Positions 4,326 to 50,215 of a DNA stretch of 64,000 bases are shown here, piece by piece (position 1 is the stretch's first letter; the number at the start of each line of letters is the position of its first letter). The notes beneath the pieces are model-generated. The model saw only the letters and a program-made list of their open reading frames with translations. It was not told the DNA's origin and ran no database searches. The translations under genes and the position numbers were made by a program. This stretch comes from Siphonodentalium dalli (lineage: Eukaryota > Mollusca > Scaphopoda > Gadilida > Siphonodentaliidae), in NCBI GenBank assembly GCA_032622095.1, contig CP136066.1:54092609-54156608 (forward strand). The letters run 5' to 3'.

Positions 4326-4354
4326 TTAATCCACTTATATTACAATAGAAGCTC

Positions 4355-15939: not shown

Positions 15940-16390
15940 TGACCAAATAGGGTGTCTGTCATTTGCAGAATGAGGTCCCCAGAGGGTGAATTTAGTGATA
16001 CTATCCCGCAGTGGGCTAGCATCACCAAATTCACCCTCTGGAGACCTCATTCTGCTTAAGCCTCATCTTCTGGGAAGTATCTATAGTCTCAATTAACATT
16101 GTTATTAGTTATGTTTTCCCTTCTGAGAAGTTTCTACTGGTATATGCCCTAATTTGCAGAAGATAAAATGCATAATCGAGGTGCCCAATGGGTGAACATC
16201 ATCAACTTCAACAGGGGAACTTCAATCTCATCCTAGGTCTACCATAGCAGTTGAGGAACTAAGCAGAATGAGGTCACCAGAGGGTCAATTTGGTGATACT
16301 AGCCCGCTATGCGGGGTAGCATCACTAAATTCACCCTCTGGGGATCTCATTCTGCAAATGACAGACACGCTATTTGCAGGCTTGTGGGTG
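15940..16390. mobile_element. Family B double-palindrome MITE, full length
   Basis: It runs from aatagggtgtctgtcatttgcagaatgagg to cctcattctgcaaatgacagacacgctatt. Palindrome 1 is at 15972-16057 and palindrome 2 at 16267-16357, with a spacer containing 'ctaatttgcagaagataaaatgc'. This is the best uninterrupted long copy. Confidence 0.8.
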
Positions 16391-19718: not shown

Positions 19719-19722
19719 TTAA

Positions 19723-19971
19723 CCCTTCCAAGACTGGAACTTAATGAAATTTTTTGAAGACACTGTGCCAGTTCATTCTCTTATATATGCGAGTCTCTCA
19801 TAGGGAGCCTAGCATATATAATAGAATACATTGGCCTATCAATATTTACCTTGTAAGCCAGTGCAATCTCTTATATATGCGAGGCTCCCTATGGGAGACT
19901 CGCATATAAAAGAGTATGCACTGACACAGTATGTTTAATGCTGCACAAGCGCAGCTCCCGTCATGAAAGGG
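19723..19971. mobile_element. Family D hairpin MITE sharing a TTAA with its neighbour
   Basis: Between TTAA 19719-19722, which is also the right TTAA of the family G element, and TTAA 19972-19975. Two inverted hairpins with the centre TCTCTCATAGGGAGC and its inverse. Terminus CCCGTCATGAAAGGG. Confidence 0.8.
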
Positions 19972-20222
19972 TTAAAGGGTCATACTAGTGCCTTATCAAT
20001 ATTTCCACTGTGGTCCTGTGAGTCCTATGACTCCATTTTGGCCAGCTCATTTTGCCATAAACCAATGCATTCATCGCTATGGTAGGGTTCATTAACGTAC
20101 AAACATTGTTGCACATGGATTGCCATTAATATTGGGTCCCAACATGATGGGTGCACCTGGGACAGTGTCATCCCTGGACATGACACAATGAGAGGAAGAA
20201 AATTTTGAAGACAAATCCTTAA

Positions 20223-20562: not shown

Positions 20563-20677
20563 CTGAAATGATAAGACACAATGTAAACTTGTTGATATTT
20601 TTAAAATCCAATTTTAGAAACTACTGTAAATTAATCAGTGCAGCTGAGGTAAATTAATATAAAACAATTATCATTAA

Positions 20678-20937
20678 CCCATCCATGACTGGAGCTTTCT
20701 GAAATTTGACGAAAACCGTGTGCCACTGTATTCTCTTATATATGCGAGTCTCCCTTAGGGAGTATCGCAGATATATAATAAGAGAATACATTGGCCTAAC
20801 AATATTTGACTTGACATTGTAAGCCAGTGCATTCTCATATATATGCGAGGCTCCCTATGGGAGACTTGCATATAAAAGACAATGAACTGGCACAGGATCA
20901 TTAATGCTGCACCTGTGGAGCTCCCGTCATGAAAGGG
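20678..20937. mobile_element. Family D hairpin MITE
   Basis: Between TTAA 20674-20677 and TTAA 20938-20941, with two hairpins around ttagggagtatcgc and ctccctatgggag. Termini CCCATCCATGACTGGAGC and GCTCCCGTCATGAAAGGG. Confidence 0.8.
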
Positions 20938-21789
20938 TTAAAGTGATTATTACTGTAAATGTCATTTTTCCGTGGTGGCCCAAATTTAGTGCTTTTCGTG
21001 GTTCTTGAAATCAACAAAATTAAAAAACCCTCAAAAATTGTTCGAAAACAAAAATTTTGCTGACTCATATAGTAGTCACCATTTTTGGATATTCTATGCA
21101 GCAGATAACTCAATTGACATAGCAAACATTCAAAATCCAGGCGACGTAGTTGCATAATGCGGTTGGTGAATTTTATATGGTGTAGATTAATCAGATGCTG
21201 GCATCGCTAAATAAACCCCATCTTCACTGATTATTTTCAGAAACAGTACTTTCACCAAGCTAAATTAAACTTTCAAGATGGATTATCTCTTTAAATAACA
21301 AATTTGAAATAGTTGCGTGGGTATAAAATAAATAAATATGAATTGAAGACCCCATCCAGAAATGCTTCTGCCAATTAATATTGATTTTATTTCGAATATT
21401 TTGTTATGAAATGAGATGATTAAATGGGACAGACCATTCAGGCTATACCATATAGTGATAGAGATCATTAGGGTGTTCCCATAGCTACCTTCTGAATGTC
21501 AAATGTCCCAGATTGATTGGTTGTATTGTTTTATTCCATAGTTATAAGCAATAATGAGTCTAATTAACATTTATTTATGACAAAATTACCCAATAAAATT
21601 TCTGGTCTCTGTTAACAGTAACTAATATTGTTCGTTAGCTAAACAACCACACCTTTTTAGACCAGAAAATATTAAACATATAATCAATATTAAACGATAG
21701 AAGTATTTTCAGACAGGAGTCTTCGATTCGTATCTAATATTTTATATTAACTATATAGCACATGTTTACAAAGAGATAGATCATCTTAA

Positions 21790-23098: not shown

Positions 23099-23463
23099 GT
23101 TCCAATAATAATTATGCGATGCATGGTTATTATATTTCCTTCACCCATTGTTGATTTGTGATTGGAATTTTAAACAATTTTAATATTTCCACCCGTCATT
23201 TTTGACAGCAATCACTTAGTCTAGAATTATCTTCTTAAATGCATTAAAAAATATTTGAAATGTAATTTAGAATACACAATATTTCACAAGTACAATACCA
23301 ACCGAAAATGACTGCAATCCTTTCAAATTTGTGAAGAGGAAATTTCTTGAATTAATCAGTTTAAATTAATGGACTTCATATTAGTAATTTTGTATGCTTT
23401 TCAACAAATACATAACAGTTATATCTTGAAAATTCAAATTACAAACACCATGAATGCCTTTAA

Positions 23464-23855
23464 CCCTTTACCCAACAGAAGGGCCCTGTGCCAATGCATT
23501 CTCTTATATATGCGAGTCGACCATAGGTCGCCTCGCATATATAAGAGAATGCATTGGCTTAACACATTAAAAATTATAAAATTGTTAAAGAATGTAAGAA
23601 AAAATGGTAAAAAGTATTAAAAAAAGATTTTTTTTAGGCCAATGCATTCTCTTATATATGCGAGGCGACCTATGGTCGACTCGCATATATAAGAGAATGT
23701 ATTGGCACAGGGCATAACTGTAACTATCACAATGTGGTCAAGGAGCCGGTTCCAATGATATCCATATTTGTATGGTTCTATTGAGACAGACCGAAGATAT
23801 TTTAGGCTGTTGAAGCTTTATTTGGCCGGTTTTGGCCGGTTTGTTGGTTAAAGGG
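23464..23855. mobile_element. Family A hairpin MITE, full length
   Basis: Between TTAA 23460-23463 and 23856-23859. Two perfect hairpin cassettes in inverse orientation; spacer aaaattataaaattgttaaag. The tail has a duplicated 'ttggccggtt'. Nearly identical to 3943-4325 in the same orientation. Confidence 0.85.
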
Positions 23856-23994
23856 TTAAATCAGCCCTTGCAATTTAAATCTACATTCAGAAGAGCTATA
23901 AGTTTTGCCACATAAAAATATTTATATGGTTTATAACACTAGTATCAAGTGGTAATATGACAACCAAGTCTGGATATAAAGTCTTATAACATTT

Positions 23995-25121: not shown

Positions 25122-25185
25122 TTAACCCTTTCAGTGCCAAGTCTGATTTTTGTATCAACCCATATTTCCTTGATCATTTTTCAAA
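25122..25185. repeat. Family E MITE left-end fragment
   Basis: TTAACCCTTTCAGTGCCAAGTC followed by tgatttttgtatcaacccatat, as in the family E elements at 26545, 40361 and 49510; the rest is missing. Confidence 0.6.
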
Positions 25186-25606: not shown

Positions 25607-25758
25607 CTGACAAGAAAAAAAGTTTAATATATCACATTTTATAGACGGAAAGAATATTTTCAAATTTTATGATTATTTTAGTATTCAGTGAGTCATTATT
25701 TGTGAAACAAGCTAAATGGTCAATAGAAGCAAATGGTAGTTTCCACAATCTGGTTTAA

Positions 25759-26215
25759 CCCTTTACCCGACAAAACGGCCAAAAACACCCAAATAAAGCT
25801 TCAACAGCCTAAAATATCTTCGGTCTGTCTCAATAACACCATACAAATATGGATATCATTGGAACCGGTTCATTGACCACATTGTGATGGTTACAGTTAT
25901 GCCCTGTGCCAATGCATTCTTTTATATATGCGAGTCGACCATAGGTCGCCTCGCATATATAAGAGAATGCATTGGCCTAAAAACATTCTTTTTTTAACAC
26001 GTTTTACCATTTTTTCTTACATTCTTTAACAATTTTATAATTTTTGCTTACATTTTTTAACAATTTTTATAATATTTTTCTACATTCTTTGACAATTTTA
26101 TCATTTTTAATATGTGTTAAGCCAATGCATTCTCTTATAAATGCGAGGCGACCTATGGTCGACTCGCATATATAAGAGAATGCATTGGCACAGGGCCGTT
26201 CTGTTGGGTAAAGTT
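25759..26215. mobile_element. Family A hairpin MITE with lengthened spacer
   Basis: TTAA 25755-25758 and 26216-26219. It is in inverse orientation to 3943. The spacer between the two hairpins is expanded by repeats of 'ttttacattctttaacaattttata'. The right terminus has decayed (ggtaaagtttt). Confidence 0.8.
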
Positions 26216-26544
26216 TTAAAGTGGAGAAGCCGTTTATTTGAGTTTATGTGTAATTGGCACTGCACTGCCCTCAAAATAAAGTGTTAAAGCCAAAATACAT
26301 CTAATAATATTCGCTTTTGAATTTTTCCTGATATCGACATAGGTCGATAAATACCTGAACTACCTTTTTTATGAGAATTATATGTCACACAAGGACGCAT
26401 TGAAGTCATAAAAAATACAACTTCAAACACAATGTAAGAGGCCCCCATATAAAAACGGTGCCATTTGAATTCATCAGAATTCTGGAAATGGAAACGGAAT
26501 AACCAGAAAAAGTTTATTGCATTATCTCAACATGAAACTATTAA

Positions 26545-26775
26545 CCCTTTGAGTGCCAGGTCCGATTTTTGTATCAACCCATATATCCTGTGCCAATGCA
26601 TTCTCTTATATATGCGAGTCAACCATAGGTCGCCTCGCATATATAAGAGAATGCATTGGCCTAACAATTTTTCATCATTTGTTATTATTTTTGACAATTT
26701 TTTTCAATTTTAATAATTTTTTCTTATATTCTTTAACTCTTTCAGTATTTTGTAGGTTTAGTGCCAGGGAATCTT
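26545..26775. mobile_element. Family E MITE carrying one hairpin
   Basis: TTAA 26541-26544, left end CCCTTTGAGTGCCAGGTCCGATTTTTGTATC, a single 67-bp cassette (26586-26660), and a decayed right end (ttgtaggtttagtgccagg). Confidence 0.75.
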
Positions 26776-27369
26776 ACGTTTTTCATGGGCATCAAAATTA
26801 TTACTATGAATAATTGGTAATAGTTTTGAGTTATAACATGCCCCTAAGGTTTTATCCAGTTTGTTTTTAAATTCGCTATAGCATGCTTAAGCATACCCAA
26901 ACAAAATTCAACCCAAATTTAAAAAAAAAAATTTAGGGCCGATTTTACAGACCGTATCGTGTAGGAATGTTTGGAGATACCTCTTACCATATTAGTTATA
27001 CATAATTTGGGGGGTATCGAACAAGCCATGTCCTTTTATAACAGTGATTATAACAATAACCAGCTTTATGCTTTGGCGATGTCTTGGTAGCTTATATCTA
27101 CCTATAATTATTTCTTCCAATTTACTGCTTAGACCCAGTTGATACTTTTATATGGTATGTACATATACACCAACACTATATCTGTTGAAGTCTGAGCACT
27201 ACTTAAGGCTTTAAACAATTGTAGCGGTCGAATTGTAAATATAGAAGGCTGATGACTTCTCTGCTCAAGAAGAGGACTCGGGTGAGATTCAGTGAATCTC
27301 AAAAAGAACGGGGAGTAGTGTAGCGGTCTCATTGTATGACTTCTCTGCTCGAGAGGTCTAGATCTCTTG

Positions 27370-27540: not shown

Positions 27541-27990
27541 TAGGCCCGAGAATATGGTGCCGGACATTTGCACAATGAGGTCCCCGGAAGGAGAATTTAG
27601 CGAGGCTACCCCACACAGTGGCCTAGCATCACTAAATTCACCCTCTGGGGACCTCATTCTGCATAGACCTCATCATCTCTGAAACGTATCTTTATTATCA
27701 AATTAACTATTTTTTTTAGTTTCTTTAGAAAGTTTCTTTTTTAGTTTAGGTTCTCGATATCCTCAAATTGTCAGAAGACACATTGCATAATCGAGGTGTA
27801 CAATGGGTGAACATCACAATATTCACCATCTGAAAACTTAAATCTGAGTCTAGGTCTCCCATAGCAGATGAGGTCTAAGCAGAATGAGGTACACAGAGGG
27901 TGAATTTAGTGATGCTACCCCGCTGTATGGAGTAGCATCACTAAATTCACCCTCTGGGGACCTCATTCTGCATGTCTGGCATATTCTCAG
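27541..27990. mobile_element. Family B MITE, full length, ending near an exon
   Basis: Outer inverted ends are TAGGCCCGAGAATATGGTGCC and the inverse of GGCATATTCTCAGGCCTG. Flanks ttcagaag and tttagaat resemble an 8-bp duplication with mismatches. Palindromes lie at 27575-27662 and 27880-27970. The element ends about 25 bp before the donor of the exon at 28023. Confidence 0.7.
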
Positions 27991-28412: not shown

Positions 28413-28416
28413 TTAA

Positions 28417-28793
28417 CCCTTTACCCAACAAACCGGCCAAAACCGGCCAAATAAAGCTTCAACATCCTAAAATATCTTCGGTCTGTCTCAATAGAACCAT
28501 ACAAATATGGATATCATTGGAACCGGCTCCTTGACCACATTGTGATAGTTACAGTTATGCCCTGTGCCAATGCATTCTCTTATATATGCGAGTCGACCAT
28601 AGGTCGCCTCGCATATATAAGAGAATGCATTGGCCTAAAAACACTTTTTACCATTTTTTCTTACATTCTTTAACAATTTTATAATTTTTAATGTGTTAAG
28701 CCAATGCATTCTCTTATATATGCGAGGCGACCTATGGTCGACTCGCATATATAAGAGAATGCATTGGCACAGGGCCCTTCTGTTGGGTAAAGG
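28417..28793. mobile_element. Family A hairpin MITE, right end truncated
   Basis: TTAA 28413-28416 on the left. Two perfect cassettes and tgttgggtaaagga on the right without the closing TTAA. Orientation opposite to 3943. Confidence 0.8.
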
Positions 28794-28831
28794 ATGGCCT
28801 TACTGTGTTTGCTTCTCTATGAGTTTATTAA

Positions 28832-33094: not shown

Positions 33095-33199
33095 AATCAC
33101 AATGACCCCCCAATAAAGTTGACAAGAGCAGCGCAAAAAAGTCAATGCGGCGCTGTCTGAGACTCAAATAATATATTTGTTTTGGCCTTATTACTTATA

Positions 33200-33386
33200 C
33201 AGTAATGCTCTAAGTTATCGACTCCTTAACCACAGCAGAATTATGGGTAACTTTTCAGGATTTAGTTGGAAATATGGCTTGTTGCCATTTCCGATGAATG
33301 GCAACAAGCCATATTTCCGACGAAATCCTGAAAAGTTACCCATAATTCTGCTGTGGTTAAGGAGTCGCTTACTTAGAGCATTACTG
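33200..33386. mobile_element. TA-flanked fold-back MITE (mariner-like)
   Basis: 187 bp, flanked by TA (33198-33199 and 33387-33388), with arms of about 90 bases: CAGTAATGCTCTAAGTTATC to its inverse GATxxCTTACTTAGAGCATTACTG. The arms nearly meet at a short centre (tccgatgaa). TA target and CAGT start fit Tc1/mariner-type non-autonomous elements. Confidence 0.75.
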
Positions 33387-33559
33387 TAACTGAAATTTAC
33401 AAGAAAGATAGGTATCGATTGTCTCCCGATTTTTAACATCAAACACACCTCAACCATTTAATAGATGTTCTTAAAATGCACGTAACCCCTTTCACTCATA
33501 AATACAATAATTGCTGCAACAAATATCTAGCTCAAACACTGCATGAGTTCCAGATAGCA

Positions 33560-36199: not shown

Positions 36200-36278
36200 C
36201 TGTAACAGAAAAGAAGTCAATATCCCATCAATTGTTTTGAATGAAAATGTCAAAAACAGGATCAAACAATTTGTTTAA

Positions 36279-36613
36279 CCCTTTACCCACCAAAACGGCC
36301 AAAACAAGCTTCAACAGCCTAAAATATCTTCGGTCTGTCTCAATAGAACCATACAAATATGGATATCATTGGAACCGGCTCCTTGACCACATTGTGATAG
36401 TTACAGTTATGCCCTGTGCCAATGCATTCTCTTATATATGCGAGTCGACCATAGGTCGCCTCGCATATATAAGAGAATGCATTGGCCTAAATTTTTTTTA
36501 TAATTTTTAATGTGTTAAGCCAATGCATTCTCTTATATATGCGAGGCGACCTATGGTCGACTTGCATATATAAGAGAATGCATTGGCACAGGGCCGTTCT
36601 GTTGGGTAAAGGG
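36279..36613. mobile_element. Family A hairpin MITE, short spacer
   Basis: TTAA 36275-36278 and 36614-36617. Two perfect cassettes with only about 35 bases between them. It continues directly into a family D left-end fragment (36618-36665, ccctgtaatggcgtgagctggg) that uses the same TTAA. Confidence 0.85.
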
Positions 36614-36839
36614 TTAACCCTGTAATGGCGTGAGCTGGGCTGGCGCAGCATTAAAGGCATGGATGGCCTTCATTGCAGGTTATAATTTAGAAATAAAAGT
36701 TACCAAATTATGACAATTTCCTCAATATATATGAATAGTTTCGTATAACGATAGTTTTTGCATTACTGGTTTGATGGTTTAGTTATTTTACAAAGCTGTG
36801 AATGTTCACAATCAATCCTGGATTTAGTGTGTCTGACAT

Positions 36840-37130
36840 TATAAGTATCTATAGTCTCAAATTAACATTGTTTTTAGTTACTTTTTCCTTTCTGTTCAGT
36901 TTCTATATCCCCTAATTTGCAGAAGATAAAATGTATAATCGAGGTGACTAATGTATGGCCATCACCAACTTCAACAAGGGAACTTCAATCTGACCCTAGG
37001 TCTACCATAGCAGTTGAGGCCTAAGTAGAATGAGGTTCAGATGGTGAATTTGGTTATGCCAGCCCACTATACGGGATAGCGTCACTAAATTCGCCCTCTG
37101 GGAACCTCATTCTGCAAATGACAGACACAA
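36840..37130. mobile_element. Family B MITE, partial
   Basis: Spacer text (taatttgcagaagataaaatg; caaggcttgcc at the end) and one diverged palindrome at 37025-37115. The left palindrome is missing. Confidence 0.65.
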
Positions 37131-37823
37131 GGCTTGCCAACACTCAGCCTATAGGAAAATAGCCCAATTTCTCTCCTCTGCATTTTGTCATCTGCACTTT
37201 CAATGTCTCAATGCCAAATAATAGTGATCGTTTGGGAATTTTCTCCAAAATTAATAATTGTTCAGACACTACAATTAGGCATGTGAGAGTAATAACCTCG
37301 ACTTTGATCTCTGAGTTCTCAAATAAAACACAAGTAACAGAGTAACAGAGTTGGTAAAACTCAGCATATTTTCTGAAATTTTGTAGCAAATTAATGAGAT
37401 TGAACTTATGAAATCATTCCTGGTATGTTTACACTATCAGATATTGACCAGAAGAGGCAGTCGTACCAGTACCATGTTTTACTTCTGTATTACCTCGTCA
37501 AAATTTTCCAACAATTACCTCTCATAAGAGCATTTAGCCTTGTGTTGCCCCAATATAAATATTCATTAATTAGTTAAAAATAAAGAACGTTTTTACTGAT
37601 ATACTGTTATGGTTATTTTCAACTGTATAAATAATAATAATTTTGTTTTCACTTTGAAATAATGAATTATGTTTCTTATTTTTGGTTTCTTCAAATTGTA
37701 TAATTTTCAAATAGTTTATATCATGAAACACATGTTAAGAGTCAGGTGTTTAAACCAAGAACACTGTCCATACAGATGTTAGATACATACAATGCTTGGG
37801 TGTGCACACTCTCCGCACTTTAC

Positions 37824-37937
37824 TTTTGGAACCTTAAGCTTGGCGATGTGGCTGTCCCGGAATTTAACTATCATCTTCGTGGTCTGAAGAGCTTTCTGGC
37901 ACTTGCACAGCTGTTCTTGTAGGTCCGATGTGGTCTC
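37824..37937 (-). CDS. KIF15: KIF15-like exon h: stalk with MIVKFR motif
   Basis: 114 bp, phase 0 to 0, acceptor ttttcag. It includes CQKALQTTKMIVKFRDSHIA; the KMIVKFRxxxI block is shared with vertebrate KIF15. The donor is ambiguous: AAA|gtaaag (chosen) or AAG|gttcca nine bases earlier at 37833. Both keep phase 0. Confidence 0.88.
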
Positions 37938-38002
37938 CTGAAAAGATTCAAATCCCTTCATCAGAACTAAAGCACTGAGGCCATGATATAACATATTGTT
38001 AA

Positions 38003-38274
38003 ACCCTTTATAAGTTTCTATACTAAACACTCATTGATGAGTAGTTCCCTTAGGCAATGTTCAGATAATAAATTCAACAAACAACCATAGGTCGGTGGTT
38101 GAACATATTATCTGAAGATTTCCCATCAATGAATATGAATCCTTCTGCACTTTCATTACCTTTCTTATGACTGTTGTCTGTCATTTTTTCTGAACGCCCC
38201 TCCAAATGAGTAATAGACCATTCCAATGTATACTTTTATAGCTGAATGGGAGAATCCATTTAGTATAGAAAGGG
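38003..38274. mobile_element. Family C MITE, near full length, beside a splice donor
   Basis: It runs from about 37999 (ttaaaccctttataagtttctatac) to TTAA 38275-38278. The palindrome ttcagataataaattcaacaa and its inverse are present. The right end is 4 bases from the gtaagt donor of the exon at 38288. Confidence 0.8.
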
Positions 38275-38287
38275 TTAAAATACTTAC

Positions 38288-38394
38288 ATGTTTTTCTCTT
38301 TCCGTATTCTCTCGGAATGACATAGCATAGAAAAACATCGGCTTCCATTCTGAGGAGTCTTCAGTCTCTTTCGATTGAAGTACAGATTCTGAAC
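38288..38394 (-). CDS. KIF15: KIF15-like exon g: neck and proximal stalk
   Basis: 107 bp, acceptor attttcag, donor CAT|gtaagt. Two bases finish a Gly codon, then 35 codons including EWKPMFFYAMSFRENTEREK. The FxxAMxFxxxxExEK pattern resembles the KIF15 segment after the neck. A TTAA-flanked repeat ends only 4 bases past the gtaagt donor hexamer. Confidence 0.88.
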
Positions 38395-39638
38395 CTGAAA
38401 ATAGTAAAATGTCACATTTGCTCTAATATCAGATATAAAACTTCCCATTGTTTTTGAAAGGTCACATTTACTGATGTATCAACAAAAAGGCACCAACCTG
38501 CTGCATGTAAGTATGTTTGGTGTCAAGCTACCCAACACTGATTAATCTATGAGGGTGTAAATCTCTTGATTGGATAATTCTATGCAGCGGCGATATCTTC
38601 CCATGCCTAGATGACTGCAGATAGCTCCACATTGAGCTTCGCCCTATTAAAACTATGTGGACTATATATAAACCGAGTTGGTGAATACCAGCCCTGATTT
38701 ATTAACATGAATGCAATAGGCAGACAGAGATTGTTACACAATGGCTCATAACTCAATAGTTGTTAAATATATTCTGTCTGTGTCATCACTTATGGGCACT
38801 GATACAAGGCTTCAGGCATTGTATAGCCAAATCCCCCCCACCATCAAGTTTATGCAGTACGTTCATTAATGTGTTCCTCAAATATATGCATAATAATATC
38901 GTATTACAGGTTGTGAGAGTACTCTGCTACAAGTTATATTTAAAGTTCTCCACACATATCAGTGACTCCCTCAAAAAGGTAAACGCTCTTCATATTAAAA
39001 CGCATTACCATTTCGATGTAATTTATCGGAATGCAATCATCGGCTGTGTCTCAATCTCACCATTTTATATATATTTCTAGAAGCTTCTTGAATCAATGGC
39101 CAGACTGTATCATAGTTTCATCAACTGGTCCATATTCTATCATGATAGTATTATATATGACGAATGTAACCAGACAATGCTTATACTCTAACAAATGTCA
39201 AACAGACATATAGAGAATAACAAGGGGAAGGGGTAGAAAAAGAGAGAGAGATAGGTATGTCGAGAGCACTTGTGTATGAGTTGTCACAACTTATATATGC
39301 AGGGCAGAGCCAGAAAATTGTTACAAAATGGGTTCAAAACTCAGGCATAATTTCATACTTAATAATGGCTTATTCTGAACATACATATAATCGTTATCAA
39401 GAGTTTGTATATATATGTTAAATCCCGAGGGAGGGTGCAATGGTACCCCCCATCAGCTCCCGGATTATGACAGAATTGGTTGATAACAGGGTTGCAATGA
39501 TTCATCACAGTTTCATTGCATATCATTTCTGTCTCTGCATTGCATAGAAAAATTGTCTTCAAGATACATATATTTACTGTGTAGAGCTGTCCAACATTCA
39601 TTATTCTGGAGTGACAATTATCAGGTTCATCAATTTAA

Positions 39639-40085
39639 AGGGGGACTGTAAACTAAAACCAGCCATTTTTGGGACCATCTCCTTTTATACTCAACATAAT
39701 ATGCAACAAATGAATGAATTTGAGCCATGGAATAGTGCAACATTCACTCATGTGCTCTAAGTATGATACAAACAACATGGTAATTATGATGAAAATGAAT
39801 AAATGGCTGGAGTCATAAATTCATTTTCATTATAATCACCATGTTGTTTGCATCGTTCATAGAAGAAAAAAAACATAGAAAAAAACAAAACAAGTTTATG
39901 CTAATGACTCGATTCATTAACGAATTTTCATTATATTACCATGTTGTTTGCATCGTTCATTGAGCACATGAATGTATTTTGCACTAATCCATTAATCCAC
40001 TAATTCATTCATTTGTTACATATATTACATTGAGTATAAAAGGAGATGGTCCCAATAATGACCGGAGTTAGTGTACTGCACCTCT
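39639..40085. mobile_element. Family F fold-back element, full length
   Basis: 447 bp between TTAA 39635-39638 and 40086-40089. Long inverted ends: AGGGGGACTGTAAACTAAAA, ggaccatctccttttatact, aacaaatgaatgaat and atgttgtttgcatcgttcat all recur in inverse on the right, so the arms reach well over 150 bases. No coding capacity. Confidence 0.8.
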
Positions 40086-40180
40086 TTAAGTTTGCATTGC
40101 AATTTGCATCATAGGGGAAAAATCATGATGCTCATCATGAACCCTCCTCCGCATTGTTGCAGTCATAGTTGATAACATAC

Positions 40181-40295
40181 CTTCGACTGAGATGGACTGG
40201 ATATGTTGTTGCTGAGAGTTCACCAGGTCATTCAGCCTTCTAATCTCATTCCGAAGATGCTCCACATTTCCCTGTGTATCTTCATTCACGATAGC
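40181..40295 (-). CDS. KIF15: KIF15-like exon f: motor end and neck
   Basis: 115 bp, acceptor ttttgcag, donor GAAG|gtatgt, ends after one base of a codon. It begins AIVNEDTQGNVEHLRNEIRR. The block VNEDTQGNV followed by a basic coiled coil is, as I know the family, highly characteristic of KIF15, and it is the strongest evidence for the subfamily. The coiled-coil stalk starts here. Confidence 0.94.
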
Positions 40296-40360
40296 CTGCA
40301 AAATAATATCAGCCAGTTGTTGAACTTTACGAAAACCCTGTGCCAATGGAGCCTCGCATA

Positions 40361-40612
40361 ACCCTTTGAGTGCCAGGGGCCGATCTCATCGGCCCTAAAC
40401 CTACACAATAAGTCTGTTAAAGAATATAATAAAATATATTAAAATTGTAAAAAACTGTATAAAAAAAAAAATTAAAAAACAAAAAAAATGTTAGGCCAAT
40501 GCATTCTCTTATATATGCGAGGCGACCTATGGTCGACTCGCATATATATAAGAGAATGCATTGGCACAGGGTATATGGGTTGATACAAAAATCGGACCTG
40601 GCACTCAAAGGG
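40361..40612. mobile_element. Family E MITE with one hairpin cassette
   Basis: CCCTTTGAGTGCCAGGGGCC (left) to GACCTGGCACTCAAAGGG and TTAA 40613-40616 (right). The internal cassette at 40497-40564 carries two extra bases in one arm (tatatata). The end 'gtatatgggttgatacaaaaatcgg' is the inverse of the left end of 26545. Confidence 0.8.
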
Positions 40613-40616
40613 TTAA

Positions 40617-40717
40617 GAGAATACATTGGCATAAAAATATTTATCTTGACATTGTAAGCCAGTGTATTCTCTTATATATATGTGAGGCTCCCTCTGGCAG
40701 CTCCCGTCATGAAAGTG
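40617..40717. repeat. Family D right half
   Basis: The sequence gagaatacattggcataaaa to gcagctcccgtcatgaaagtg is the right half of a family D element. It lies between two TTAA sites (40613-40616 and 40718-40721) shared with its neighbours. Confidence 0.7.
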
Positions 40718-40721
40718 TTAA

Positions 40722-41080
40722 AGTGATGTGAAACACTCCGGTGGGGTGATCAAATAGAAATTGAGAATAATCTTGCTCAAAGTAGTTATTTGTTACTAAT
40801 ATTAATCCAAATGGACGATACACACTGTCATTCTTATATATTAATTAAATGCAATGACTCTTGATGTCGATATAATTTGTGTTAGATTATCGCCGATAGT
40901 TGCGCCCCGAATCGAGATGTAACTATTTACAATGTTCAGACAATGTTTACTATGGAGTGGTATGGTCGATTTCTTGGAAATTTCCCGCGATGTTAGTAGA
41001 ATGCTACATTCCCCAGGTTGACATAGCGCCTGAGTACTAACTTATCAATTTCACGCACCGAACAAGTCCATAATATGTCT
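40722..41080. mobile_element. Family G element, inverted
   Basis: TTAA 40718-40721 and 41081-41084; AGTGATGTGAAACACTCCGG to AAGTCCATAATATGTCT. A diverged relative of the same family lies at about 42088-42435. Confidence 0.75.
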
Positions 41081-41437
41081 TTAAGCCAAATAAATAAAAA
41101 TATCCATATGTTCTATTGGACTAATTGGACTTTTATCAATAATTCCACTGTAACAGTATTGTTTACCTAACAATGGTTTGATATGTGAAATATTGCTATT
41201 GGAGAGTTATTAATAATGAAAATAGTAACAAAATTGATCCATTTTTACATGTACTTGTTGAGGATAGTTGTTTTACAGACTTTTATAAAAATCTTATGTC
41301 GCACAAACTTACTTTGAAGGTTTTGAGCTCCTTTAACAAATTTACGGTGACTAAAAGAATACATAGAAAGTATACAAAAGCAAGATTATGTTATGATACA
41401 AGATGTCATCTGAGCAGGATAACTTGAGTAGACTTAC

Positions 41438-41501
41438 CTTATTCCTTATTAACTTCGCCCTGCTCGCAAACTGTAGGGTCGACATAGTTTCACTGAAACA
41501 T
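41438..41501 (-). CDS. KIF15: KIF15-like exon e: motor domain, last helix
   Basis: 64 bp, acceptor atttgcag, donor AAG|gtaagt. One base completes the previous codon, then 21 codons: CFSETMSTLQFASRAKLIRN and K. ETxSTLxFAxRAK is the closing motif of the kinesin motor domain, leading into the neck. Confidence 0.94.
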
Positions 41502-42004
41502 CTGCAAATAAAGGAAAACACACTTTTAAGGATATGATTTCATTTACAGTGAAATTCATTCACAAGGACATACAAGTATAGAGGCAATAATCGAAGGAAA
41601 GGTCTTGGGTCACTCCTAGATCTTATGGCAAAGTGACTGCACTGGGCTCTCTATCACTAAAATGAAAGTGAGTTGTCTTTCTTCATGGACAAAGTGTGTG
41701 TTAGAAAATTGAACGACAAAAATGGGAAAAGTAAATTAGAACTGAAATGTGGAAACCATTGTTGAGGTAATCAAATATTTGTGATCATAGCATGCCTTCA
41801 ACAGTTAAAGGAACTTAAGACATTCATAGTGGGTTCATACAAAATAAAATAGAAGTCTGTAAAACAACTATTATCAACAATACATGAAAAAATAGATCTT
41901 ATTTTCATTATTGAATTACTCTCCAATAATGAGATTTCCCATATGGAAACAATTGTTATGAAAACATTACTGTTATATTGGAAAAGGTCCAGATACCAAC
42001 TCAC

Positions 42005-42063
42005 TTATGTCCGGGGTGAACACATGCTATAACACTGGTTTTGGCATTGCCTCCAAGGGAATC
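42005..42063 (-). CDS. KIF15: KIF15-like exon d: motor domain, LGGNAKT
   Basis: 59 bp, starts in phase 0 after ttttcag and ends after two bases of a codon at AA|gtgagt. It encodes DSLGGNAKTSVIACVHPGH. LGGNAKT is a universally conserved kinesin motor motif. The split codon is completed as AAA (Lys) by the next exon. Confidence 0.93.
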
Positions 42064-42087
42064 CTGAAAATGAAAAGAAAAATGCCG

Positions 42088-42435
42088 TAAAGTGATATGA
42101 AACACTCTGCTGAGGTGATCAGAACGGAATAACAAATAATCATGCCATATGTGATATCCATATAATCAGAAAACAGCGTCATTGTTATAAACAAATCACA
42201 CAATCAGTATTTTATTCATGGAATCATTTCCATAATGTTTACGCCCAATGTGTCCCGAATAAAGTAGTAAATATTTTAATTTGTGCATACCGGTAGTTCA
42301 ACCGTTGTTTTCTCAGAAATGTTACAGTCGATGTGGTTGGAATTTTCGATGATCTTAGTTCATTGCTACATTCTTCCAGTGCGGACAGTGTTTGGATACT
42401 AACTTATCAGTTTTATTCATTGACATAAGTCCACC
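42088..42435. repeat. Diverged family G copy
   Basis: It begins 'gtaaagtgatatgaaacactctgctgaggtgatcag' and continues with scattered matches (tcccgaataaag, ggatactaacttatcagtttt). A short CAGTGTTCACACTG stretch follows at about 42440. From 42500 to 43940 I see no gene. Confidence 0.55.
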
Positions 42436-43948
42436 ATCAGTGTTCACACTGTCGGTGGCCAATGGCTACTTTTTTTTTTTTCGAAAGTAGCCACAAAAAA
42501 TTTCATTTGGCCAAACTTTTTTTCATCACTAAAGGAGTCAGCAAATCCAATTCAAAAAGGGCTGAATAGATCGACGATGTTATGCGACAAAATATCGCTG
42601 GTTTTGGACACGCCGGTTTCGTACTTCAGATATATCATGCGATGACAACCCAAATTTATTTTGTAAGGGGAGCGTTGATTGAATGGTGATGGTTGTACAA
42701 AGGCGATAACTATTCAACAAAAACCTTAATCTCTGCACTGGTTATATCATGTTTTGTTGATCAGGCGGACTGTGAGATGAAGTACGTAAATGCATTGTCC
42801 CATTAGATCTACAAGCGATGGCATGTCAGTTACATAGAGGATCTCACATGAGTTTATACGGAATTTATCAATCGAGTTCACTAAATTCGATTTGAGCCGA
42901 GGTTTACCGAGGCTAAAATAGAATTTAGAGGACGAGGTTGATAAATTACGTATAAAATAGGACAAGTGTGAGATACCTTTTATCACATGATCAAATAAAC
43001 CCGAAGCAATGCGCAATATTCATCGAAAACAACAATCATAAACTACAGCGATCGCAAGTTATTTGAAGAACGCCGTGACGTCATCGCACGTGCTGATATT
43101 AAACGTGTCTATTACCGATAATTATGAAACTGCTTTTATGGCCAAATTATGTGATAAATAAAGTGTTGTAAACTGCCTCCCGTCATATAACAACCAGGCT
43201 TCACACCATAAACAATAGGTATTCAACACCTCACGATAATAATCAACAGAATTGTCGTTTTATTTCGGCGAAAATAGTGATGACAACTAACACACCCCAT
43301 AACTTGATTATATGTCTTTAGGATATCAGAAAGAGAACGAGAGCACTGCCGGAAATGGCATTGGACACCCGATGGTCTGTTTCAAATTGATAATAAAGGC
43401 ATGAAGCTTTGTTGATTTCAAGCTGTTATTCCTGGGATGGGTATGGAATGACGTGAGCAAATAGAGAGAAATGTTTTCCCTGACTGAGGCCTTTGATATA
43501 TAAGTTGGGTTGCCAATCCGAGGGACCCCAAATAAAAAATTGTTATTATTTTTATGCTGCTGGTCACATAGTTTGATCAAATTTTATAATCGATTTTAAA
43601 AAATCACTAGTAGAAATTTATACTCTGCAAATAGCATTAAAATTCAATCCCATATCGTGAGTACAGTACAGTACGCAAAGCAAAACACCAGGGAGACCAC
43701 ATTGTGTGAACTTTGGTTAACACTGCCACCCTGTGTTAGCAACACAGCTGTACAGCGCTTGCTAATCCTCAACACTTAAGATTTTAGTGTTGAATGGGTC
43801 ACCGTGAATCAATCTCCGAAAAAAAATTGCCATGGTGTTGAGTGTCTTGCTTATCTCACACGCTTTACGTGCTGTATATAAACAAACGATTTACGTATAT
43901 AATCAAACGATTCTGTTGATAATATTTATTTATATATTAGTATATTAA

Positions 43949-44291
43949 CCCTTTACCCAACAAACCGGCCACAACCGGCCAAATAAAGCTTCAACAGCCT
44001 AAAATATCTTCGGTCTGTCTCAATAGAACCATACAAATATGGATATCATTGGAACCGGCTCATTGACCACATTGTGATGGTTATAGTTATGCCCTGTGCC
44101 AATGCATTCTCTTATATATGCGAGTCGACCATAGGTCGCCTCGCATATATAAGAGAATGCATTGGCCTAAAAAAAATCTTTTTTTAACACTTTTTACCAT
44201 TTTTTCTTACATTCTTTAACAATTTTATAATTGGTCGACTCGCATATATAAGAGAATGCATTGGCACAGGGCCCTTCTGTTGGGTAAAGGG
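43949..44291. mobile_element. Family A MITE, second hairpin half deleted
   Basis: TTAA 43945-43948 and 44292-44295. The first cassette is perfect. The second lacks its left arm and begins at ggtcgactcgcatata, so it cannot fold. Confidence 0.85.
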
Positions 44292-44366
44292 TTAACTTTT
44301 ATTTCGAAATTATACCTACAGCCAAGGCCATCCGTGCCTTTGAAAATTATTATTAATATAACTTAC

Positions 44367-44492
44367 CCGCAGCAGGAAGGTTAGTTTTGAGTCCCTGTAA
44401 GGCACGTGTGATTTCTTCTGATTGGCTTTCGCTACTAGCGACATGATAACATTGCCAAGTGTTGACAAACTTCTGTTAATATTGCCTGCTTC
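44367..44492 (-). CDS. KIF15: KIF15-like exon c: motor domain, helix 4 to YRDSKLT
   Basis: 126 bp, phase 0 to 0, acceptor ttaacag, donor CGG|gtaagt (perfect). It encodes [20 protein letters not shown] and ends [18 protein letters not shown] and the [10 protein letters not shown] block are the microtubule-facing helix 4 and loop 12 signature of kinesins. The sequence is close to the kinesin-12 pattern. Confidence 0.94.
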
Positions 44493-44529
44493 CTGTTAAA
44501 AACAAATGCCATTTTAATATTAACAATAT

Positions 44530-45116
44530 CTTCACTAAATACTCATTGACGAGTAGTTCCCTTATAAACCATCTCTTTACTAAATACTCATTGACAAGTT
44601 GTTCCTTTAGCAGCCCTGGGAATTAGCCTAGGCAATAGGCAATGCCTAGGTAAAAGCAGAGGCAAAATCTGTTTGCCTAGGCAATTATATTTCCTAGGTA
44701 AAACAAGTACATTGGGTTACTAAAATTGATTTGTGTCTATCAGAAATAGAACCTCTTTAGCCAAATTGACTTCTTTAAATCACTCTTTACATATATTGTC
44801 CTACAATTGTTTCCATGGCACTGGGCCATTAACTAGCTACCCGGTATAAGGACACTTATTTTGGAGATGATTTGTGGAATTGTACATATTGTTGAGTAAT
44901 GGCCTGGAAATAATGTTCCTCAAAATAACTAAGCATTTCAGGTTATTATTGAATCATTGATTTGAGATGGCAATATTGTTGCAAAATTGCCTAGGTTAAA
45001 TCTGTTTTTGCCTAAGCCGATTTCTTTCACCTAGGAAAATATACTGCCTAGGCGAATTTTCCTTAACTCCCAGGGCTGCTTTAGGATATGTTCAGATAAT
45101 AAGACGGCCATCTACA
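44530..45116. mobile_element. Family C remnant split by a nested element
   Basis: Left part 44530-44604 (actaaatactcattgacgag, repeated once as actaaatactcattgacaag), right part 45085-45116 (gatatgttcagataataag). The gap is the element at 44611-45078. Confidence 0.65.
44611..45078. mobile_element. Nested MITE with GCAGCCCTGGGA ends
   Basis: 468 bp. Starts CAGCCCTGGGAATTAGCCTAGG and ends CTTAACTCCCAGGGCTG; flanks are CTTTAG at 44605-44610 and 45079-45084. The motif GCCTAGGC recurs many times near both ends in both orientations. The superfamily is unclear because the duplication is 4 to 6 bp, depending on where the ends are set. Confidence 0.75.
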
Positions 45117-45732
45117 TCCTATAATATGTTACCCGATTTAGGGGTGATATCGCCCCAAGCAATATACATGTATATTCTATTATATTTAATTTTATCTTGC
45201 ATTTCCTATGAAATTCCCTGATAAAATTGGCAATAACTTATTGGCTATAAAAACATATGTATCATTACTGCAGTTGTGGTACAAGCCACGCATGACGTCA
45301 TTGATTGGTCAAAATCATAGATGAATTGACGTCACATCAATCATGTGAAAATTACAACAACATTCCAACGTTTATTCTTGCACACTATAAACAAATAGTC
45401 CCTAGATTTTAACATTATTTGATTGCCTCCCATTGTGGATATTACTGTAAAAGATATCGCAAAGTATCCAATATACATATTTGTTGAGTAATTATTAATT
45501 TATTTATAAAAAGGCAGATGTAAGATTGTCCATTGAATTCAATTTCTGTTAGGCATAATCGCGTGAACTTGCAGGTTGTGAGAATTTAGCAAATCGAAAT
45601 AATCGCGTGATACTGTTATATTTGCATGTTGGGAGAATTTATTCAAAAAAGCTAATTTTCGAACACAAATCCAATGATTTTGGAATTTAAATCACTCCTA
45701 ACATGTAATGGTAAATACGCAATGTGATTGTA

Positions 45733-45847
45733 ATGATTCATGTATCACGACTCAGCTAGTTTTCGAGGCCACATAGCGACTCAGTGACTGAGTCCGCCTC
45801 ATCGGTATATGGCCATGAAAACTAGCCTTTTCGTGATACATGAATCG
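45733..45847. repeat. Fold-back sequence of about 115 bp
   Basis: gattcatgtatcacga ... ctagttttc ... gaggccacat pairs with atatggccatgaaaactag ... tcgtgatacatgaatc. The centre, actcagtgactgagt, is itself a perfect palindrome. Confidence 0.75.
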
Positions 45848-45999
45848 ATACAAGTAAATTGTGTATAGAACACATATGTATTTATACTTTCCAAGTGTGT
45901 ATATTGTAAATAAAAATATCCTCAGTTTCAACAAATGACTATAGCCTAGGCTGTTTGTTTGAACTTATTATTTGAACATTTCCCACCAATGTCAATTAA

Positions 46000-46382
46000 C
46001 CCTTTACCCAACAAAACGGCCAAATAAAGCTTCAACAGCCTAAAATATCTTCGGTCTGTCTCAATAGAACCATACAAATATGGATATCATTGGAACCGGC
46101 TCCTTGACCACATTGTGATGGTTACAGTTATGCCCTGTGCCAATGCATTCTCTTATATATGCGAGTCGACCATAGGTCGCCTCGCATATATAAGAGAATG
46201 CATTGGCCTAAAAAAAATCTTTTTTTAACACTTTTTACCATTTTTTTCTTACATTCTTTAACAATTTTATAATTTTTAATGTGTTAAGCCAATGCATTCT
46301 CTTATATATGCGAGGCGACCTATGGTCGACTCGCATATATAAGCGAATGCATTGGCACAGGGCCCTTCTGTTGGGTAAAGGG
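46000..46382. mobile_element. Family A MITE nested in a family C element
   Basis: TTAA 45996-45999 and 46383-46386. Two cassettes, the second with one change (aagcgaatgc). Flanks on both sides (tttgaacatttcccaccaat; aggaatccttctgcaca) are adjacent parts of family C, so family C was there first. Confidence 0.85.
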
Positions 46383-46804
46383 TTAATAGGAATCCTTCTG
46401 CACATGTATTATTAATTAGTCAATCCATCATCTGTTTGTATTTCCTGAATATCCCTCCATATGAATAATAGACTTGTTTTCGGACACACGATTAACTCTC
46501 TATCTGCCAAAGAATTCTTCATTGTACTTCACTAAATACATTTAGCATGCTTAAATCGTGACACAGAAACCGATCGTCGTTCATCAAACTATAGTTCAAG
46601 TTTTGTTACAGAACTCAACAAAATTGAATAAAAACATAATTTCAATTGACAGAACTTCCAGAAGTGTCTCTTGACAGGTGAATTTGACTCAAAATTTTAC
46701 AATCCATAAGATACATAATTAGTGCAAGGAAAAACGATAAACGATGACTTCAAGTGCTGACTAGTTGTTTTCCAGTAGTTTGTGAGATTGGCTAAATTAC
46801 ATAC

Positions 46805-46912
46805 CTTTAGTCTGAGGCCGACGGCATTGGTATGCTTCTGACATTCTGAGCCAGCCAGATCTACCAGATGAAGATGAGACGTTCTCACATTAGCAACACC
46901 ACCTTTTGTTTC
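46805..46912 (-). CDS. KIF15: KIF15-like exon b: motor domain, switch II
   Basis: 108 bp, phase 0 to 0, acceptor tttttcag, donor AAG|gtatgt. It encodes HLHLVDLAGSECQKHTNAVG and then LRLK. DLAGSE is the switch II loop that senses the gamma phosphate. The residue after SE is Cys where almost all kinesins have Arg, and the usual Glu of the A-E-G motif in the following helix is Val. Both differ from the family consensus. The frame continues perfectly into the next exon (EAGNINRSL). Confidence 0.93.
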
Positions 46913-47049
46913 CTGAAAAAAAAAGTCAATTGAAAATAGAGTTATATGAAGTAATTCTGATATACAAGAATAAAAAATCAAATATCCAATAGTTCAGCCA
47001 AAAAAATTTAATAGACAGATGGTATTTTTTATGGATATTCTGAATAGAG

Positions 47050-47303
47050 CAAGCCTTGAAATAGGGTGTCTGTCATTTGCAGAATGAGGTCCCCAGAGGG
47101 TGAATTTAGTGATGCTACCCTGCATAGCGGACTAGCATCACCAAATTCACCCTCTGGTGACCTCATTCTGCTTACACCTCAGCAGAATGAGGTTCCCAGA
47201 GGGTGAATTTGGTGATGCTAGCTCACTATGCGGGGTAGCATCACTAAATTCACCCTCTGGGGACCTCATTCTGCAAATGACAGACACCCTATTTCAAGGC
47301 TTG
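47050..47303. mobile_element. Family B MITE with 8-bp target duplication
   Basis: Flanks GAATAGAG (47042-47049) and GAATGGAG (47304-47311). Ends CAAGCCTTGAAATAGGGTGT and its inverse, perfect over the first 17 bases and beyond. It holds two palindromes directly joined with almost no spacer, so it is a compact form (254 bp). Duplication size suggests hAT-type mobilisation. Confidence 0.8.
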
Positions 47304-47689
47304 GAATGGAGCAATATTCATAATTAATATAAATAAAAAAATGTCTGACTATTTTATCTTGATCTTACGGCTTCACTGTTTTTCGATATTCAGTCTTATC
47401 GCGATATCTTTTTAAAAACGTGGAGTCTGTTTTGAAAAAAATTAATAGTTGGTATATCGTGGGTGATGATATGCCAATTATTAAGTCACTTTTCAATTTA
47501 AAACAGACAACAAATTAAGTATGTAATTGAAATGTCTTCCTATGCACAAGGGAACAAAGAGACAGAAGTTTCAGATCAAAGGGTTGTATCAGCATAAAGA
47601 CATGAATAGCATCAACATCTTTGTTCATCCACGTGTGTTGGTGGAAATAATAAAACAATTTCATTGCGCCTAAATCATATCCATGGCCT

Positions 47690-48012
47690 CATCTGCTATG
47701 GGAGACCTAGACACAGATTTAAGTTCCCAGATGGTCATGTGCACCCTTGGTCACCTCAATTATGCATTGTGTGCTAAAATTGGGGATATAGAGAAAATAA
47801 AATAAAAAAGGAAATAATATTTCTCAAGAAGTTTCTATAGGAACTAAAATACTTGTTAATTTGATAATAAAAATACTTCCAGAGAAATGAGGCGCAAGCC
47901 GAATGGGGTCCCCAGAGGGTGAATTTAGTGATGCTAGCTGTGTGGGGAGCATCACTAAATTCACCCTCTGGGGACCTCATTCTGCAAATGACAGACATCA
48001 TACTTTCAGGCC
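47690..48012. mobile_element. Family B MITE, one palindrome lost
   Basis: Inverse of the family spacer (ctatgggagacctagacac; ggtcacctcaattatgcatt), then a complete palindrome at 47907-47985 and the end ctgcaaatgacagaca. Confidence 0.65.
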
Positions 48013-48149
48013 TGCTTCTTACCAGGAATAAATTATATTTTGTGAATGACTTTGAAGGCTCATTTCATCAACAAATAATACTTGTTGCCTGATCCTCATT
48101 TCCATACATTATCTTTTCTATTTATATATTTGTATCATCTGTATATTAA

Positions 48150-48540
48150 CCCTTTACCCAACAAACCGGCCAAAACCGGCCAAATAAAGCTTCAACAGCC
48201 TAAAATATCTTCGGTCTGTCTCAATAGAACCATACACATATGGATATCATTGGAACCGGCTCCTTGACCACATTGTGATAGATACAGTTATGCCCTGTGC
48301 CAATGCATTCTCTTATATATGCGAGTCGACCATAGGTCGCCTCGCATATATAAGAGAATGCATTGGCCTAAAAAAATCTTTTGTTAACACTTTTTACCAT
48401 TTTTTCTTACATTCTTTAAATTTTTTATAATTTTTAATGTGTTAAGCCAATGCATTCTCTTATATATGCGAGGCGACCTATGGTCGACTCGCATATATAA
48501 GAGAATGCATTGGCACATGGCCCTTCTGTTGGGTAAAGGG
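48150..48540. mobile_element. Family A hairpin MITE, full length
   Basis: TTAA 48146-48149 and 48541-48544. Two perfect cassettes; tail sequence duplicated as ccggccaaaaccggccaaat near the left end. Confidence 0.85.
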
Positions 48541-48635
48541 TTAAGTTATGTTGGATTTGGAAATAAAAATAAGTTTACACTAACAAATAATACTTGTATC
48601 TCAATAATTTAATGTTATGAACATAATGTGTGACT

Positions 48636-48868
48636 TTAACGCTTTCTTTACTGAACACTCATTGATGAGCATCTATGAGTAATTCCCTTCGGAAATTTTC
48701 GGATCATTTCCCCACCAATAAATAAGTATCCAAAAGCACACGCATTATCTGTTTTTCTATCTGCCATCTGCTCATATTTCCTGAACATCCCTCCAAATGG
48801 ATAATATACAATTCCAATGTATACATATATAACTGATGGGAGATTCCATCTAGTTAAGAAAGGGTGGT
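48636..48868. mobile_element. Family C MITE, decayed
   Basis: ttaacgctttctttactgaacactca to gattccatctagttaagaaaggg. It ends 26 bases from the donor of the switch I exon. Confidence 0.65.
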
Positions 48869-48894
48869 GAGAAATGCAGACGTGATTTCATTAC

Positions 48895-48996
48895 CTTTGA
48901 TTCGATATGAACTGTAAATACAGCGTGACTTCTGGAACTCTCTCTGTTCATTGATGTCGATGCCACCCTCCTATTCAATGATCCATTTGTTAGAAC
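48895..48996 (-). CDS. KIF15: KIF15-like exon a: motor domain, switch I
   Basis: 102 bp, phase 0 at both ends. Acceptor is ttttag before GTTCTAACA and the donor is AAG|gtaatg. It encodes 34 residues containing RRVASTSMNRESSRSHAVFT, which is the kinesin switch I region (NxxSSRSH) that contacts the nucleotide and closes on ATP binding. All key switch I residues are present. The upstream coding exons with the P-loop are not between here and 64000 as far as I can see. A TTAA-type repeat ends about 27 bp beyond the donor. Confidence 0.93.
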
Positions 48997-49389
48997 CTAA
49001 AATTCAATCAAATATAGATTGAAAAGCATAATTTGGAAGGACATTGGGTTATCTTGTATTTATATATATATATATAACCCTTCATCTGTGTGTAACTAAT
49101 ACTTTTTGCACATTTATAATGCTTCAATCATATGACCATTACAATTTCTATATACGAGCATAATTTTTAATCACGCAACAACCCAGTCATTGAAAACTCC
49201 CCACCACTGTCATCATTTCACGACTTCATCTGGCCCTCTCTCCTCTTCTAGTTTCTCCTTCCACTCCCTTTCTCTCTTTTTTTTTCTCTCTCTGCCTACT
49301 GCTATCCCCAACACTAACTTCGTCCTTTTTTCCATCCCTAGCACAAATTCTGTTATAAATCTCCAATTGTAAAAAAAAAAACACTATTT

Positions 49390-50215
49390 CCAACCCTTCC
49401 CATCTGACCTATACCCCTCCCTCACTTATAAGGGATGGGGCATGTAGCCAAAGATGAGAAGACTTCACATAAGCCCTCGGGCTTGTTGTCTGATCCTCGT
49501 TTCCATATACCCTTTGAGTGCCAGGGGCCGATATTATCGGCCCTAAACCTACACAATAAGTCTGTTAAAGAATATAATAAAATATATTAAAATTGTAAAA
49601 AATTAAAAAAAATAAAAATTAAAAAAAAATTGTTAAGCCAATGCATTCTCTTATATATGCGAGGCGACCTATGGTCGACTCGCATATATAAGAGAATGCA
49701 TTGGCACAGGGTATATGGGTTGATACAAAAATCGGACCTGGCACTCAAAGGGTTAACACTTCTATTTTGTTTATATGTGTCAATCTGTATACTTTGGATT
49801 TGGAAATAAAAACATGTTTGCATTAACTCACATGTGACCAAATTTCTTACCATTCAGTTCAGACTTACCAAAGTTATCATCCGGATAAGAAAATTGAGTC
49901 CAAATTCCAACAAAAAAAATACAACTCTGGTGAAACTTGGCATGCAGAACTCAAATTTGAACTTGATCTGTATTTTGGGCTAGTAAACTCACATACCAAC
50001 TTTGTTTCCATTCAGTTCAGACTTACTAAAGTCATCATCCAGAATAAAAAAAACAAACAAACGGACAGCAACAAAGACAAATGAACCAATAACATAATAC
50101 GTCCATTTATTTTTTTTAAAAGGATGTAAAAAATCAATTATTTCCACTACTTCCCATCTGAACAACCCCCTTCCTCACTTATTGGGGACGGGGAATGTAG
50201 CCAAAGGGGAAAAGA
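49390..50215. repeat. Repeated flank segments in the upstream intron
   Basis: Two related blocks (49390-49470 and 50142-50215: tcccatctga, cctcacttat, ggggatgtagccaaag) and a copy of the mollusc-type repeat at 49835-50130 (accaaatttc, aactctggtgaaact, gaacttgatctgtattttggg). No exon of the kinesin motor is seen. Confidence 0.5.
49514..49752. mobile_element. Family E MITE with one hairpin cassette
   Basis: Left end ATACCCTTTGAGTGCCAGGGGCC, right TTAA 49753-49756. One perfect 67-bp cassette at 49635-49705. Almost identical to 40361-40612. Confidence 0.8.

Follow-up and report, generated by a model that had tools for sequence, protein, structure and literature searches.

Palindrome-bearing elements in the window

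The 64,000-nucleotide stretch of the Siphonodentalium dalli genome analyzed here (the window; contig CP136066.1, positions 54,092,609 to 54,156,608) lies on contig 6 of a nine-contig, 2.23-Gb genome, all of which is covered by the genome-wide counts given below. It contains miniature inverted-repeat transposable elements (MITEs) that carry one or two copies of a 67-bp palindrome, referred to here as the cassette. A 20-base sequence from its arm, CCAATGCATTCTCTTATATA, matched the window 53 times at up to three mismatches, against a mean of 0.01 in shuffled sequences, and the terminal sequence TTAACCCTTT matched 47 times at no more than one mismatch, against 8.4 in shuffles. The palindromes sit where an initial annotation of this DNA had placed them, and elements of its families A and E were located in the window, as listed here together with those of family C.

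3939-4329, plus strand: family A MITE in the opposite orientation (family A of the initial annotation)
19719-19975, plus strand: MITE of the older family C; its two palindromes have the C-type center TCTCCCATAGGGAGC
20674-20941, plus strand: family C MITE; two palindromes
23460-23859, plus strand: family A MITE, oriented as 3939-4329
25122-25167, plus strand: cassette-free end of family E type; divergence sets in no more than a few bases from the usual junction
25755-26219, minus strand: family A MITE; longer spacer, decayed short-end tip
26541-26960, plus strand: family E element of the long form, truncated on the right (limit approximate); single palindrome at 26593-26659 (compare locus L003)
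28413-28798, minus strand: family A MITE; TTAACC gone from the short-end tip
36275-36617, minus strand: family A (including D) MITE bounded by TTAA at each end; inverted palindrome pair at 36419-36485 and 36520-36586
40358-40616, minus strand: family E MITE with tips CCCTTTGAGTGCCAGG; single palindrome at 40496-40564
43945-44295, minus strand: family A MITE; left palindrome at 44099-44165 intact, half of the right one deleted
45996-46386, minus strand: family A MITE; palindromes at 46140-46206 and 46289-46355, reverse complement matching 3939-4329
48146-48544, minus strand: family A MITE; palindromes at 48300-48366 and 48447-48513
about 49507-49756, minus strand: family E MITE; single palindrome at 49638-49704, TTAA at the far end decayed

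Six copies of family A and one of family C in the window have TTAA on both sides and matching tips; in each of the two E copies, one TTAA has decayed. The tips of family A read TTAACCCTTTACCCAACA, and its elements contain two cassettes in opposite orientation, as had been reported in the initial annotation; the junction at the short end has 41,512 exact matches in the genome. Family E has tips TTAACCCTTTGAGTGCCAGG and a single palindrome (12,610 genomic occurrences of the junction), and the tips of family C are TTAACCCTTTCATGACTGGAGC or CATGACGGGAGC. CCCTTT marks each end of the A, C, and E elements, which fits the piggyBac-type tip rule of CC[C/T]T in a short terminal inverted repeat. A family D with ends unrelated to those of A had been the main example of cassette sharing put forward in the initial annotation. 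However, 3939-4329 and the reverse complement of 45996-46386 are 98% identical (383/390); therefore, A and D represent one family found in opposite orientations, and their treatment as separate families was ruled out.

Family C is older, with a mean of 7.4 of the 67 sites changed compared with 1.3 for the A type. At locus L002 (1350-2110; C1, ~0.54 Mb), C-type palindromes form a tandem array with a 97-bp period. A further cassette-bearing type, G, is probably present at locus L010. A and E elements recur approximately every 11.2 kb in region G000 (C1:794000-926000) and therefore seem to be part of a large tandem repeat.

Family F has different tips and a different target duplication

The same palindromes are carried by family F, the ends of which, GTGACCCGCCATATCAAATCCAGTCG, were found as 10,118 exact 37-mers genome-wide; the tip is GTGACCC, and the element ends GTGACCCGCCATATC. 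Target duplications were read from both borders of ten copies: seven have ATAT, one locus seen twice (in opposite orientations) has ATTT/AAAT, and one is degenerate. As the duplication is 4 bp and of ATAT type, F is not a TTAA element, and the TTAA duplication of piggyBac-type transposons was not found in these ten copies. Family F appears to be moved by a transposase of another kind than that acting on the TTAA families. Both ATAT and ATTT agree with a 4-bp AWWT pattern, and AWWT duplications have been described for Sola2 elements (PMC3627910), a likeness of duplication length and composition alone. Neither a Sola transposase nor a matching tip turned up for F, although no search aimed at a Sola2 transposase was made, and F was not classed as Sola2 because its transposase was not found. 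Copies of F were found inserted into palindrome-bearing elements. A third palindrome-like segment lies mid-element in F (consensus CCCCATACAGAGCCCC...GGGGCTCTGTATGGGG; for example, L007 1350-1950), and a segment related to it lies outside the element at L009.

The evidence supports one 67-bp palindrome being common to the distinct families A (including D), E, C, and F, whose ends are unrelated. The sharing of the cassette by distinct MITE families, as originally proposed, therefore holds for these families but not for A versus D. Descent of all families from one ancestor by decay of the flanks does not fit, as tips and duplications differ outright and there is a cassette-free E-type end at 25122-25167. 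The latter agrees with cassette-bearing E ends at 93% of positions over 44 bp and would fit modular gain or loss, the direction of which is not fixed by one example.

Structure and extent of the shared module

Previously described as 26-base arms flanking a 15-base center, the cassette is instead a near-perfect palindrome in which positions 1 to 32 pair with positions 36 to 67 around a 3-base ATA loop, giving a 32-bp stem with a single mismatch, T27/C41. As RNA, the 67-mer folds into a 31-pair stem (-50.9 kcal/mol); no match to the cassette was found in an Rfam search or in viral contigs. A genome-wide search, as proposed in the initial annotation, identified 274,154 exact copies of the 26-base arm, 131,887 outer arms preceded by CTGTG, and 118,425 A-type centers (three positions left open), with zero for the reversed control in each case. 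One search pattern, which ended TATATAAG rather than TATATATGCGAG, picks out a minor variant, and the 30 loci obtained with it are therefore a non-random sample.

When clustered by flanking ends, 86 outer-arm flanks sorted into a few kinds, and across them the edge of the module was the same in every family, with CC followed by CTGTGCC at the junction. The shared part exceeds the palindrome, extending from (C)CCTGTG to ~50-60 bp into the AT-rich spacer; past the palindrome, local alignments of A with F, A with E, and E with F each scored higher than all 500 dinucleotide shuffles (P ≤ 0.002). The cassette starts 31 bp inside the tip at the short end of A, ~49-52 bp inside it in C, E, and F, and 144-154 bp inside it at the tail end of A.

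Conservation of the palindrome and compensating changes

The consensus palindromes of A, E, and F are identical, whereas the adjacent spacers differ at 7/53 (A-F), 7/57 (E-F), and 10/54 (A-E) sites, corresponding to 82-88% identity (Fisher P = 0.003, 0.004, and 0.0002, respectively, for palindrome versus spacer). As the spacer alignments are local, they understate spacer divergence, yet AT-rich spacers may mutate faster, and several of the P values given in this section come from small samples (three spacer comparisons and 22 A copies). Four sites differ between the A and C-left palindromes, and these form two compensating pairs, 29/39 (G-C to T-A) and 30/38 (A-T to C-G). The C-right consensus has a third such pair, 4/64, and no unpaired consensus changes exist between the A and C types.

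Single copies carry one-sided mutations, and the idea that each copy is corrected from one arm to the other was rejected on that ground. Among A-type centers, 100/100 and 97/100 retain the T27/C41 mismatch, as do 97/100 and 94/100 C-type centers; this retention speaks against routine arm-to-arm correction. All three A-type exceptions with G are in E copies; this E subfamily, with G for C at palindrome position 41 (T/C to T/G), includes copies at C1:2989845, 4235044, and 5158450. In 22 A copies picked without use of their palindrome, the palindrome was compared with the 56-bp tail: private changes were equally frequent in both, and shared variants numbered zero in the palindrome and four in the tail (P = 0.04). 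The copies therefore decay neutrally, and it is in the lineages giving rise to new copies that symmetry persists, so that constraint acts on the source elements and not on individual copies. Conservation of the module thus finds backing at the level of source elements, in palindrome identity and paired changes, but not for single copies, which decay like their flanks. Internal deletions at L104, L121, L124, L126, and L127 break or fuse palindromes, as unstable palindromes would.

Comparison with piggyBac transposons

A search for a piggyBac-type transposase with ends reading CCCTTT next to TTAA had also been proposed. The intact resident family L041 (~3.41 kb, with a 606-amino-acid open frame) has TTAACCCTTTATCTGCTATA at both ends and CGCGACATAAGTCGCG at +20, and TTAACCCTTT is the only part of the tip that it has in common with the MITEs. 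The cassette was absent from all 50 piggyBac transposase loci examined; a cassette-bearing autonomous piggyBac was rejected on this count, the few matches at five mismatches in 20 being close to chance for that length. Among the same 50 loci, no exact autonomous partner with a MITE-identical terminal repeat was identified (116 of 649 candidates scored). The tip of family E matches that of L031 at 16 of 19 bases.

Shorter palindromes do occur inside the resident tips. In the 2.5-kb L060, palindromes of the CACGAGTTATCTCGTG type sit at +20 and +59, with a further two close to the 3' end, and L031 has three between +50 and +218. Considered together, L041, L060, and L031 have 12-20-bp palindromes whose starts lie at +20 to +59 from the tip, exceeding shuffles at the 5' ends. 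C-terminal domains, acting as a dimer, bind the palindromic internal repeat of piggyBac (PMC7351741), and piggyBat makes the same use of an imperfect palindrome (PMC11707139). In both Trichoplusia ni (T. ni) piggyBac and piggyBat, a palindrome lies just inside the tip, a likeness to the cassette; however, the known repeats are 14-19 bp compared with 67 bp and differ in sequence, and dimer binding, demonstrated in those systems, is a candidate here. By this analogy, binding of the cassette by a transposase is plausible, its position being compatible. Loci L031 to L080 include many intact, near-identical piggyBac transposase copies in at least nine clusters (for example, 606-amino-acid frames, copies ~99% alike), and piggyBac may therefore still be active in the genome.

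Candidate role of the module and alternative explanations

The data point to a shared, conserved module across MITE families, which numbers more than 100,000 copies and has a candidate function. Our preferred explanation, which we hold tentatively and with somewhat less than even confidence, is a cis-acting role for the cassette as a transposition module of non-autonomous DNA transposons, most likely as a subterminal dimer-binding or enhancer site. In the TTAA families (A, E, and C), piggyBac-class transposases would cut at the TTAACCCTTT tips, and the palindrome, lying 31 or ~49-52 bp in from either or both of the tips, would provide the putative subterminal dimer-binding or transposition-enhancing site. 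Elements with a symmetrical palindrome would leave more copies, and the same palindrome would thereby survive even as divergence or exchange alters the tips and spacers. In F, the identical module would work with more than one transposase or via a host factor, or may have been acquired by recombination and be simply carried along.

Several observations weigh against a transposition module of this kind. Family F, whose tips are unrelated and whose 4-bp duplication is of ATAT type, carries it in identical form, which is left unaccounted for and weakens a purely piggyBac view. The 67-bp length compares with 12-20 bp in resident and published sites, the palindromes of L041, L031, and L060 differ in sequence, and, as noted above, it is missing from the piggyBac transposase loci. 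Family E has the cassette at one end only, and the distance from cassette to tip varies from 31 to 154 bp. A doubtful variant is that the long palindrome is a cis module independent of any one transposase, which TTAA piggyBac-type and ATAT-duplicating transposons would both have acquired and would keep under selection, so that the module, not the tip, would unite the families.

The continuation of homology from the palindrome into the spacer, the behavior of palindromes as hotspots of deletion and rearrangement (the five loci listed above), the insertion of F into palindrome-bearing elements, and the cassette-free E-type end are all consistent with a functionless module passively spread by recombination, template switching, or tip replacement round an old core (the last a possible origin), its likeness stemming from fairly recent exchange. 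Such passive sharing is a serious rival, although we consider it rather unlikely; it sits poorly with a palindrome that is identical where the spacer differs at 12-19% of sites, with consensus changes between types that are all paired, and with the avoidance of the palindrome by the shared variants of A copies. Also a serious rival, and one to which we assign a smaller likelihood, is a function of the hairpin itself, whether as a cruciform in the DNA, a site for a host factor, or an RNA stem (small-RNA precursor), that aids persistence under any transposase. This would account for F, and both the pairing kept despite changed upper-stem sequence (with one mismatch kept) and the stable 31-pair RNA stem are in keeping with it, but there is no Rfam match, and the otherwise unaltered long AT stretch is what one expects of a sequence-specific site.

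Quasi-palindrome mutation by template switching can correct one arm to the other, giving paired changes. Mutational upkeep by such hairpin-mediated copying, with no selection, could yield pairs such as 29/39 and 30/38, but appears improbable given that one-sided mutations persist in single copies and that T27/C41 stays uncorrected, with both corrected forms together making up 3/100 C-type and 0/100 A-type centers. It is more improbable still that the module is itself mobile, with ends CCCTGTGCC...GGCACAGGG, and was inserted into several MITEs. The abrupt outer junction, identical in all families, would agree with this, but no solo modules were present among the 86 flanks, which consist of family sequence, in some cases decayed, and the module's own edges lack a duplication. 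TTAA directly before the module (TTAACCCTGTGCC) gave 316 exact matches compared with ~132,000 outer arms, and the module as a stand-alone TTAA element was rejected.

Other palindromes in the window

A second, unrelated palindrome family (GCAGAATGAGGTCCCCAGAGGGTGAATTTAGTGATGCTA...) is present at 5682-5784, 15965-16055, 16263-16355, 27879-27971, 47050-47303, and 47898-47985; it includes a double palindrome once, and its 24-base core has 42,505 exact occurrences in the genome. A 92-nucleotide inverted repeat at 33198-33388 (96% complementary, 7-nucleotide loop) is likewise unrelated to the cassette.

Relation to coral MITEs and significance

The closest precedent for these elements is provided by the CMITEs of Acropora corals, TTAA MITE families whose origin was called unexplained by the authors (Wang et al. 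2010, PMC2872659). CMITEs and the present MITEs are alike in forming TTAA families with CCCTTT-type tips and tandem arrays in genomes with piggyBac-like transposons. In CMITEs, as here, families resemble one another more closely in the internal region than in the terminal inverted repeats, and a role in transposition was suspected (PMC2872659). The CMITEs have a 75-bp core, elements of ~100 bp, and ~1,600 copies, compared with a 67-bp palindrome and more than 118,000 centers here; the text of that paper drawn on here describes neither a palindrome nor a non-TTAA family, and the likeness is judged by description, not by core sequence. Beyond what is described there, the present families add a long palindrome with compensating changes, approximately two orders of magnitude more copies, and a crossing to a non-TTAA family.

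MITE families are usually defined by their tips. The internal palindrome described here is better conserved than tips or spacer, stays paired by way of compensating changes, and extends to an element whose target duplication is of a different kind. If the palindrome drives mobility, it would offer a direct, testable answer to how some MITEs pass 100,000 copies, and the unexplained conserved core of the CMITEs would become a general principle.

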